From contig NZ_VAWE01000001.1 in assembly GCF_005795905.1 (NCBI RefSeq), positions 7,939,501-8,003,500 of the forward strand: a stretch of 64,000 nt of DNA, given 5' to 3'. The notes below the pieces were generated by a model. The model was not told the DNA's origin, did no database searches, and saw only the letters and a program-made list of their open reading frames with translations. Made by a program: the position numbers and the translations under genes. The DNA is from Streptomyces marianii (GTDB taxonomy: Bacteria; Actinomycetota; Actinomycetes; Streptomycetales; Streptomycetaceae). Below are positions 14,810-59,279 of this stretch, one piece after another; position 1 is the stretch's first letter; every line of letters starts with the position of its first letter.

Positions 14810-14823
14810 TGGAACGCGTTCTA
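14810..14823. promoter_or_regulatory. KstR-type operator
   Basis: TGGAACGCGTTCTA matches the KstR consensus TnnAACnnGTTnnA at every fixed position. KstR is the TetR-family repressor of cholesterol catabolism in mycobacteria and rhodococci, de-repressed by steroid CoA thioesters. The site ends 52 nt before the start of a FadE26-like steroid acyl-CoA dehydrogenase, exactly where an operator is expected. Confidence 0.7.
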
Positions 14824-56462: not shown

Positions 56463-58094
56463 TCACCCCGTCCCGGTGCCGCCGGCCGCCGCGGCGACCG
56501 CCCGTGCCCAGCGGTAGTCCGCCTTGCCGCTCGGAGAGCGCTGGATGGCCGGGGTGACGACCAGTTGTCGCGGGATCTTGTACCCCGCCAGCCTGCTGCG
56601 GCAGTGCGCCTGGACGGACCCCAGGTCCAGCGCGGGCGCCCCCTCCCGCAGTTGTACGACCGCGGCCACGTGGTTGCCCCACTTCGCGTCGGGAACCCCG
56701 GCCACCAGTGCGTCGTAGACGTCCGGATGGGCCTTCAGCGCCTGCTCGACCTCCTCCGGATAGACCTTCTCCCCACCGGTGTTGATGCACTGGGAGCCCC
56801 GTCCCAGCACGGTGACCACGCCCTCCTCGTCCACCGTGGCCATGTCGCCGAGCAGCACCCAGCGCTCGCCGCCCCGGCGGAAGAAGGTCTCGGCGGTCTT
56901 GGCCGGGTCGTTGTAGTAGCCGAGCGGCACATGGCCGCGCTGGGCGATCCGGCCCGGTTCGCCCACCGCGACCGGCTCGCACGTCACCGGATCGACCACC
57001 TGCGTACGGTGGTTGACCCGCAGCCGTAACCCCTTCCCCGGACCCGAGTCCTCCGTGGCCGTCCCGTTGAAGCCGGACTCCGACGAGCCGAAGTTGTCCA
57101 GGAGCATCACATGCGGTGCCAGCGCCCTGAACTGCTCCCGCACCGTCTCGGACATGATCGCGCCGGAGGACGACACGCTGAACAGCGACGAGAGGTCCGT
57201 GCCCTGCGACGGGCCGTTCAGCGCGTCGACCAGTGGTCGCAGCATCGCGTCGCCCACCAGAGACACCGACGTCACCCGCTCCCGCTCGATCGTGCGCAGC
57301 ACCTCCTCCGGCACGTACTTGCGGTGGAGCACCACCCGCTGGCCGAAGCCGAAGCCGATGAACGAGGTGAGCGTCGACGTGCCGTGCATCAGCGGGGGAG
57401 TGGGGAAGAAGGTGATGCCGTCGCCGCCCGCCGCGACGCGCTCCGCCAGTTCCTCCGGCCGCTTCACCGGCTCACCGGTCGGCGCCCCACCGCCGAGCCC
57501 GGCGAAGAAGAGGTCCTCCTGGCGCCACATCACACCCTTGGGCATCCCGGTCGTGCCGCCCGTGTAGATGATGAACTGGTCGTCCGCCGAGCGTGCCCCG
57601 AAGCCGCGCCCCGGCGAGCCGGACGCCTCGGCGTCCGTGAACACGGTGCAGTCCAGGGCAGGCGCGTCCGGTGCCGGTGCGCCGACGCGAACGAGGTGCC
57701 GCAGCTTCTCCGTCCGCGGCAGGGCGGCCGCCACCCGCCCGGTGAACTCCGCGTCGAAGACGAGAGCCGCGAGATCGGCGTCGCGGTAGAGGTAGACGAG
57801 TTCCTCCTCGACATAGCGGTAGTTCACGTTGACGGGGACGATGCGCGCCTTGAGGCAGCCGAGGACCGTCTGCAGGTACTCGACGCCGTTGTAGAGGTGC
57901 AGGCCGACGTGTTCCCCGGGCTTCAGCCCCGCGTCGGCGAGGTGGTGGGCCATCCGGTTGGCCGCCGCGTCGAGCTGCGCGTAGGTGAGGCGACGCTCGG
58001 CCCCCGTTCCGGGGTGGTCGAGGTAGAGGAGCGCCTCGCGGTCCGGCACCACGTCGACGACCGACTCGAACAGGTCGGCAAGGTTGTACTCCAC
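56463..58094 (-). CDS. steroid acyl-CoA ligase, FadD19-like
   Basis: 543 aa from GTG 58094, with AGGAGG upstream. AMP-forming signatures are IIYTGGTTGMPKGVMWRQED, LDNFGSSESGFNGT, LLGDMATVDEEGVVTVLGRG and the catalytic lysine in RSPSGKADYRWAR. The GGTTGMPKGVMWRQEDLF block and overall length resemble mycobacterial FadD19 (Rv3515c), which activates C24-branched sterol side chains. It is divergent from an EchA19-like gene, as Rv3515c is from Rv3516, and a KstR-type operator lies 140 nt upstream. The 220-bp gap to the aminotransferase gene is empty. Confidence 0.87.
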   Translation of the reverse strand: MEYNLADLFESVVDVVPDREALLYLDHPGTGAERRLTYAQLDAAANRMAHHLADAGLKPGEHVGLHLYNGVEYLQTVLGCLKARIVPVNVNYRYVEEELVYLYRDADLAALVFDAEFTGRVAAALPRTEKLRHLVRVGAPAPDAPALDCTVFTDAEASGSPGRGFGARSADDQFIIYTGGTTGMPKGVMWRQEDLFFAGLGGGAPTGEPVKRPEELAERVAAGGDGITFFPTPPLMHGTSTLTSFIGFGFGQRVVLHRKYVPEEVLRTIERERVTSVSLVGDAMLRPLVDALNGPSQGTDLSSLFSVSSSGAIMSETVREQFRALAPHVMLLDNFGSSESGFNGTATEDSGPGKGLRLRVNHRTQVVDPVTCEPVAVGEPGRIAQRGHVPLGYYNDPAKTAETFFRRGGERWVLLGDMATVDEEGVVTVLGRGSQCINTGGEKVYPEEVEQALKAHPDVYDALVAGVPDAKWGNHVAAVVQLREGAPALDLGSVQAHCRSRLAGYKIPRQLVVTPAIQRSPSGKADYRWARAVAAAAGGTGTG

Positions 58095-58194
58095 CGTTCC
58101 TCCTGACCCCGGCCCGCACGGCGCAACCGCCTCGGAGCGGTCATTAGAGCGCCGCCGCCCACAACTGGGAAGGGCTACCGCAGAAGAAAACTGA

Positions 58195-58205
58195 CTGACT
58201 GTCAG
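58195..58205. promoter_or_regulatory. short dyad CTGAC-T-GTCAG
   Basis: Perfect 5-bp arms around one base, 101 nt upstream of the FadD19-like start. It might be a second regulator site in the divergent promoter. It is too short to weigh heavily. Confidence 0.25.
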
Positions 58206-58233
58206 AAAACTATTGAACTGCTCCCCGGGCTCC

Positions 58234-58247
58234 TGCAACCTGTTCTA
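58234..58247. promoter_or_regulatory. KstR-type operator at a MITE junction
   Basis: TGCAACCTGTTCTA matches TnnAACnnGTTnnA at every fixed base. It lies between the FadD19-like (-) and EchA19-like (+) genes. Its last three bases (CTA) are shared with the CTAG that starts the inserted element. Without the element the operator would end 24 nt before the EchA19-like start codon; now it is 232 nt away. Confidence 0.7.
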
Positions 58248-58456
58248 GGGCGTGTTGCGAAAGTAGCTCCGTCCGCCCGCAGGGCGGGGCCTGCGGCGTC
58301 TGGTGCATGGGGTCTCCCCAGGCCCTCCGGGCCGAGGGGAAGATCGCAAGGCGGAGGATCATCCTCGTACTGGGCGTACTTGGATGACTCCGACAACGCA
58401 GCGAGCGTGCGTGCCAGGCGTCGCGGGCCAGGAGGGACTTTCGCAACACGCCCTAG
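58245..58456. mobile_element. 212-bp MITE-like element
   Basis: Terminal inverted repeats are exact over 20 bp: CTAGGGCGTGTTGCGAAAGT at 58245-58264 and its complement at 58437-58456. CTAG at both ends may be the target duplication. The inside has no transposase; a 79-codon open frame (minus strand, ending in LLSQHALEQV) is a known kind of spurious annotation in streptomycete genomes. The end sequence resembles those of IS5-like streptomycete elements, which could move it in trans. It ends 22 bp before the EchA19-like start. Confidence 0.85.
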
Positions 58457-58478
58457 GTCTTGAGACGGGAGGACGGCC

Positions 58479-59279
58479 ATGACGGGTACGGAACACCTCA
58501 CCGTGCAGCGCGAAGGCGCCACTCTGGTGCTCACGCTGAACAGACCGGAGGCCAGGAACGCGCTGTCGCTGCCCATGCTGGTCGGGCTGTACGACGCCTG
58601 GCTGGAGGCCGACGCGGACGACGGCGTCCGCTCGGTCGTCCTGACCGGCGCGGGCGGCTCGTTCTGCGCCGGAATGGACCTCAAGGCCCTGGCCGGGAAG
58701 GGCATGGCGGGCGAGGAGTACCGCGACCGGCTCAGGGCCGACCCCGACCTCCACTGGAAGGCCATGCTCCGCCACCACCGCCCCCGCAAGCCGGTCGTCG
58801 CCGCGGTCGAGGGGCCCTGCGTCGCCGGCGGTACCGAGATCCTCCAGGGCACGGACATCCGGGTCGCCGCGCAGAGCGCCGTGTTCGGGCTGTTCGAAGT
58901 CCGCAGAGGACTCTTCCCCATCGGCGGTTCGACCGTGCGGCTCCAGCGTCAGATCCCGCGCACCCACGCCCTCGAGATGCTGCTCACCGGCCGTCCCTAC
59001 AGCGCAGCCGAGGCGGAGCGCATCGGCCTCGTCGGCAGCGTCGTCCCCGACGGCACGGCGCTGGAGCGGGCCCTCGAGACCGCCGAAAGGATCAACGCCT
59101 GCGGGCCGCTCGCCGTCGAGGCGGTGAAGGCGTCCGTCTACGAGACGGCCGAGATGACGGAGACCGAAGGGCTCGCGGCAGAACTGAAGCGCGGCTGGCC
59201 GGTCTTCGACACCGCCGACGCGAAGGAGGGTGCCCGCGCCTTCGCCGAGAAGCGCGACCCCGTGTACCGCCGGGCCTGA
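58479..59279 (+). CDS. enoyl-CoA hydratase, EchA19-like
   Basis: 266 aa with GGGAGGA before the ATG. Crotonase features are clear: LNRPEARNALSLPMLVGLYD, the oxyanion-hole loops GSFCAGMDLKALAG and GPCVAGGTEILQGTDIRVAA, and the C-terminal VEAVKASVYETAEM helices. It hydrates an enoyl-CoA intermediate; EchA19 (Rv3516) does so in sterol side-chain beta-oxidation. Start of a probable operon with the OB-fold and Ltp genes. Its native promoter has been separated from it by the MITE. Confidence 0.88.
   Translation: MTGTEHLTVQREGATLVLTLNRPEARNALSLPMLVGLYDAWLEADADDGVRSVVLTGAGGSFCAGMDLKALAGKGMAGEEYRDRLRADPDLHWKAMLRHHRPRKPVVAAVEGPCVAGGTEILQGTDIRVAAQSAVFGLFEVRRGLFPIGGSTVRLQRQIPRTHALEMLLTGRPYSAAEAERIGLVGSVVPDGTALERALETAERINACGPLAVEAVKASVYETAEMTETEGLAAELKRGWPVFDTADAKEGARAFAEKRDPVYRRA

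Follow-up and report, generated by a model that had tools for sequence, protein, structure and literature searches.

The window, i.e., the whole stretch of 64,000 nucleotides from Streptomyces marianii that was analysed, contains two divergent genes encoding a FadD19-like acyl-CoA synthetase and an EchA19-like enoyl-CoA hydratase, with a KstR-type box and a MITE in between. Their features are listed in Table 1. The EchA19-like protein additionally scores 376.7 against the EchA19 equivalog family, which is below the cut-off of 400. The box is a full match to the KstR consensus TnnAACnnGTTnnA, a motif taken from the mycobacterial KstR study (PMC1995591). The first-pass annotation described a 212-bp element with exact 20-bp inverted ends that starts at a CTAG sharing its CTA with the end of the operator and stops 22 bp before the echA19-like start codon. 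Coordinates and arms were borne out: the box ends at 58247 while the CTAG begins at 58245, and 22 bp separate the right end of the MITE from the ATG at 58479. The distances given for echA19, about 24 bp before and 232 bp after insertion, hold as well. The inverted arms reach further inward (58245-58270 and 58431-58456), with 24 of 26 bp complementary and the outer 20 exact. At 212 bp the MITE is too short to encode a transposase, and every overlapping ORF of 100 aa or more enters or crosses it from outside. The operator had been read as surviving the insertion and it is indeed whole, with the CTAG present at the element; the fadD19 side of the box is undisturbed.

Table 1. Features of the fadD19/echA19 intergenic region and its flanking genes (positions in the window).
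Feature	Position	Strand	Remarks
FadD19-like acyl-CoA synthetase, divergent	56463..58094	-	PRK07798 subfamily, 739 bits (cut-off 543)
Second conserved palindrome CTGACnnnnnGTCAG	58191..58205	.	just upstream of the -35-like hexamer
-35-like hexamer TTGAAC, toward echA19	58213..58218	+	
KstR-type box TGCAACCTGTTCTA	58234..58247	.	last three bases common to the CTAG target
-10-like hexamer CAACCT	58236..58241	+	overlaps the KstR-type box
MITE	58245..58456	+	212 bp counting both CTAGs, net 208 bp; empty site in relatives
Left terminal inverted repeat CTAGGGCGTGTTGCGAAAGT	58245..58264	+	CTAG is the target
Internal unit of the MITE, ~32-33 bp	58308..58339	+	single in the window copy
Right terminal inverted repeat	58437..58456	-	complements the left 20 bp without mismatch
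Putative ribosome-binding site GGGAGGA, echA19-like gene	58467..58473	+	outside the MITE; read from the sequence
EchA19-like enoyl-CoA hydratase	58479..59279	+	PRK07799, 416.5 bits (cut-off 316)

Relatives were collected by an EchA19 search of 150 genomes, the own genome included, in which 102 relatives matched. Of these, 99 were used, as a match at a contig end (G071) and two incomplete ones were left out; one further sequence (L129) is without the conserved promoter block described below, which leaves 98. None of these 98 aligned relatives carries the element at the fadD19/echA19 site. In the genome with the nearest EchA19 among the relatives searched (G034; L032, 97%), the site reads TGCAACCTGTTCTAGGTCTTGAGACGGGAGGACGG, with one CTAG, and an intact single CTAG is present in 17 of the 98, G034 and 16 more, as the first-pass annotation had anticipated for relatives without the element. 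At the level of the sequence, the insertion is proven by these empty sites, and the observation of a MITE inserted at the edge of a KstR-type box is confirmed. Related MITE pieces do occur at other loci of G034 (30 matches, the best being 92% over positions 98-211).

The MITE belongs to a repetitive family. Its own genome of 9.0 Mb contains at least 76 matches, pieces included, a lower bound as 40 of 216 candidates were scored. The 20-bp end, allowing up to three mismatches, has 36 matches per strand, compared to 1 and 0 for the reversed-pattern control. Sixteen near-complete copies could be aligned, with lengths of 181-388 bp; six of them, including the copy in the window, are 212-214 bp long. 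This spread is largely caused by the internal unit of ~32-33 bp, which is missing from three 181-bp copies, single in others and repeated in longer ones; across the MITE loci L001-L018 it is found in zero to several copies. There are also forms of 66-68 bp that consist of almost only the two ends (e.g., G000:C1:6323209-6323276, G000 being the own genome). Among the genomes searched, the family of the window's MITE is a narrow one, as the own genome is the only one of 26 in which the exact 20-bp end is present. The combined pattern of KstR core and MITE end is likewise found in the own genome only (1 of 392); its absence from the other 391 says little on preference, because the exact end is already absent from the 25 other genomes.

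A search of the own genome for an autonomous parent, i.e., pairs of the full MITE end enclosing an IS-sized stretch with a transposase, returned none. One candidate pair, 1.4 kb in length (5978358-5979756), was rejected since it holds a channel-like ORF and not a transposase. This stretch (G000:C1:5978358-5979756; L183) is bounded by MITE ends, each with an outer CTAG, which enclose an ORF of 302 aa, presumably for a potassium-channel protein in view of its TVGYGD motif, and is a possible MITE-borne gene cassette. An IS with a two-ORF transposase (DUF4096 and DDE_Tnp_1) is present in nine near-identical copies (L203-L211) with GGGCGTGTT ends and CTAG at eight of nine left and eight of nine right ends. 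The MITE resembles the MITEs related to such IS4/5-type elements in being short, without transposase, bounded by inverted ends and present in many copies, and it has the first nine end letters (GGGCGTGTT) and the CTAG target of the nine-copy IS. The rest of the end differs, the two diverging after these nine bases, and the MITE has its internal repeat of ~33 bp in variable number. Within this genome, the nine-copy IS would be the strongest candidate for a related helper, and an IS5-type transposase may have carried out the transposition. One of the nine copies abuts a MITE copy without right end at C1:4245694.

The insertion in the window is not the only one at a KstR-type operator. New is that a second MITE copy of the same family (G000:C1:6113253-6113560) occupies the right-hand CTAG of a perfect KstR box, TAGAACGCGTTCTAG, at C1:6113242, and has the same orientation relative to its gene as the window copy; its right end now reads CTGG instead of CTAG. 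The downstream gene is MaoC-like (MaoC_dehydratas and MFE-2_hydrat-2_N domains) and is followed by alcohol and short-chain dehydrogenase genes. The closest relatives at this locus (L275 and L276, 94%) read TAGAACGCGTTCTAGAACAG, with no element. A set of 71 MaoC sequences, composed of the own one, that of Streptomyces sp. MNU76 and those of the 69 best-matching genomes out of 329 others that matched, has the full box in 70 and a CTAG after the box in 64. In many of these promoters the operator continues as a palindrome, GTTCTAGAAC. In 70 of the 71, a promoter-like TTC(A/C/T)CA-N(16-18)-TATAC(A/C) precedes the core of the box by 15-22 bp. The MITE at the MaoC gene also lies downstream of the putative promoter and operator.

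In MNU76, the corresponding operator before the same MaoC gene is occupied at the same CTAG by a related but distinct MITE. This element of 179 bp (L243:4899-5077) has GGGCGTGTTCCGGAAGT ends and is repetitive, with 102 matches in its genome, pieces included, for a 181-bp query holding the element. It matches the window's MITE at 78% over positions 119-212 and at 81% over 1-62, on the opposite strand. The opposite orientation and this divergence point to a separate insertion in MNU76. A scan of the species-genome collection, which may leave out the own genome, for the box core with CTAGGGCGTGTT directly behind it turned up 11 stretches; ten belong to unrelated bacteria and one to Streptomyces (MNU76, L243). 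Operator insertions are rare: inserts at the MaoC operator, judged by a start-codon distance of more than 250 bp, are found only in the own genome and MNU76 (2 of 71), both of which were known before the 71 sequences were assembled.

In the own genome, 27 sites fit the KstR pattern and 12 fit its reversed control. Of the 27, seven have CTA as their last bases, with a G next to it in three cases, so KstR boxes can carry the rare CTAG target. One other box, at window position 14810 (TGGAACGCGTTCTAC), was set aside as it has no CTAG; the two nearest overlapping ORFs tried gave no Pfam family. Together, the three full-consensus boxes that contain CTAG provide four such targets, of which two are occupied. 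CTAG was counted 22 times in 120 kb (six 20-kb samples), 29 times in 184 kb with the window included and 35 times in another sample of 184 kb, from which approximately 1,400-1,700 CTAGs per genome are estimated. It is possible, if somewhat doubtful, that the two hits in one genome are a coincidence among many MITE insertions rather than a preference. CTAG alone explains each hit, and only three such insertions, in two genomes, were found. Yet the chance of at least two hits among 3-4 KstR-box CTAGs is p 0.0002-0.01, a post hoc value that assumes 1,200-2,200 CTAGs with 20-50 of them occupied, and that ignores a possible shared bias of CTAGs and MITEs toward intergenic DNA; the MNU76 element, which entered the same operator, also speaks against coincidence. 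The insertions themselves are plain from the comparisons above, whereas a preference for operators, or a regulatory effect, would be a step beyond them.

A TetR protein (L161:3352-4110, minus strand; G000:C1:6087352-6088110) has KstR as its best NCBIfam match, and among solved structures KstR (5cw8, E 2.4e-38) comes second to an unnamed TetR protein (4e-40). The gap between its gene and the divergent neighbour contains a KstR box, TGGAACTTGTTCTAG. The KstR reading of the first-pass annotation gains indirect support from this protein, from the box at its gene and from the perfect box before the MaoC gene; the NCBIfam score of 193.9 bits falls short of the cut-off of 280. For Mycobacterium, PMC1995591 assigns fadD19 and echA19 to the KstR regulon and places the motif in the kstR promoter over its -10. 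Taken together, these findings make KstR control likely at the MaoC and kstR-like promoters and plausible at fadD19/echA19. The sites resemble the mycobacterial operator by the full match at fadD19/echA19, the perfect palindrome found upstream of the MaoC gene and a position overlapping or following the predicted promoter. They differ from it in that the outer positions are not conserved at Streptomyces fadD19/echA19 and in the MITE attached to the edge.

In the relatives, conservation at the box is entangled with that of a promoter-like block, which reads TCTGAC.....GTCAGAAAAC..TTGAA...CTnCTGCAACCTGTTC. The A2 and T6 of the CAACCT hexamer are kept in 97 of the 98 relatives and TTGnnn is present 17 bp before it in 96, a spacing that suggests a sigma-70-type promoter toward echA19; against this, CAACCT agrees with TATAAT in only two of six letters and is not called by a consensus scan. 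The AACnnGTT core of the box is kept in 92 of the 98, with an out-of-register row of the alignment (L049) among the six misses. The other five break the AAC half (L091, L126, L127 and L128) or the GTT half (L080) and all keep the -10 positions, so conservation at the box may partly reflect the promoter and not the operator. The full match claimed in the first-pass annotation stands for the window; the outer A is not conserved, full TnnAACnnGTTnnA being present in 41 of the 98. The second palindrome, CTGACnnnnnGTCAG, has 38 sites in the genome compared to 4 in the reversed control; this CTGAC palindrome is strongly conserved. It recurs close to the KstR-type boxes of the MaoC gene and of a lipid-transfer thiolase gene, which makes three promoters of steroid-type genes with the palindrome near such a box (58191-58205, G000:C1:6108209 and G000:C1:6113177). 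The lipid-transfer thiolase gene is preceded by ORFs (L162:1290-4071) that encode Mu-type transposase and TnsA-like domains and end about 290 bases ahead of it; a Tn7-like element may border this KstR-box cluster.

These data leave room for an unlikely alternative, in which 58234-58247 is a -10 only, its likeness to KstR sites is accidental, a factor binding CTGACnnnnnGTCAG exerts the control, and the MITE simply hit a CTAG at the transcription start. The low share of full matches, the five relatives that dispense with AACnnGTT and the abundance of the conserved palindrome fit this idea. It has difficulty, however, with the core retained in nearly all relatives, with the KstR-like gene in the genome and with the mycobacterial precedent (PMC1995591), in which the same gene pair is in the regulon and the motif in the kstR promoter overlaps its -10.

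The explanation that accounts best for the observations, and that we regard as probable, is a CTAG-targeting MITE that entered a CTAG at the edge of the operator, left promoter and operator in place and became part of the leader. The MITE would have transposed, by means of an IS5-type transposase, into the CTAG at which the KstR-type operator of fadD19/echA19 ends. The predicted promoter block and the overlapping operator would be unchanged upstream of it; they survive because only the margin of the operator serves as target and the MITE has a CTAG at either end. Since both are located upstream of the MITE, the element should be mRNA leader. Transcription of echA19 would still start at ~58247-58249, under the same control, and read through the MITE, extending the leader from ~23 nt to ~231 nt. 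The same event would have taken place at the second KstR operator of the own genome and, with a related MITE, separately in MNU76. Such operators would be hit because TnnAACnnGTTCTA followed by G contains the rare target CTAG. Retained control, and not uncoupling, is therefore what the arrangement leads one to expect. That the operator was moved away from echA19, as the first-pass annotation put it, applies to the start codon, which moved by 208 bp, but not to the promoter that the operator overlaps. Its suggestion that the MITE uncouples echA19 from the operator, through this added distance or a promoter of its own, is improbable, as the conserved promoter-like block (58213-58241) is located entirely on the upstream side of the MITE and overlaps the box, and a sigma-70 consensus scan called no site in the MITE, which is weak evidence because the same scan misses the conserved block.

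At the RNA level, the leader with the MITE folds at -156.3 kcal/mol, compared to -113.6 for shuffles (z -7.9), the MITE being predicted as one closed hairpin that makes up most of the leader. The ribosome-binding site would stay outside this hairpin, with weak local pairing to the early coding sequence that is the same in the joined empty-site leader. A kept double change was found in only 1 of 77 pairs across 15 copies, and there is thus no sign of selection at the RNA level in this set. From the predicted fold, a change in mRNA stability or translation by the MITE leader is possible. A reading that combines KstR operators as preferred landing pads for CTAG-targeting MITEs, perhaps mostly while the repressor is not bound, with a retention of the MITE leaders because their stable 5' hairpins raise or prolong the expression of steroid-catabolic mRNAs and the switch stays intact, is highly doubtful as a whole.

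MITEs in promoters or leaders of bacterial genes are well known, e.g., the Correia elements. As with Correia-type MITEs, the element described here is located beside a start codon and may alter expression; it differs from them in that its target is part of a likely repressor operator, which is kept whole. Among the titles and beginnings of abstracts listed for Streptomyces MITEs and IS, CTAG, KstR and operator insertion, none reports MITEs at KstR operators. With a 4-bp target built into a repressor operator, an element could keep hitting a regulon without breaking its switch. If true, this would provide a simple rule, open to testing, that predicts the insertion sites of such elements in G+C-rich genomes, in which CTAG is rare, and for how the leaders of several genes in one regulon are rebuilt.
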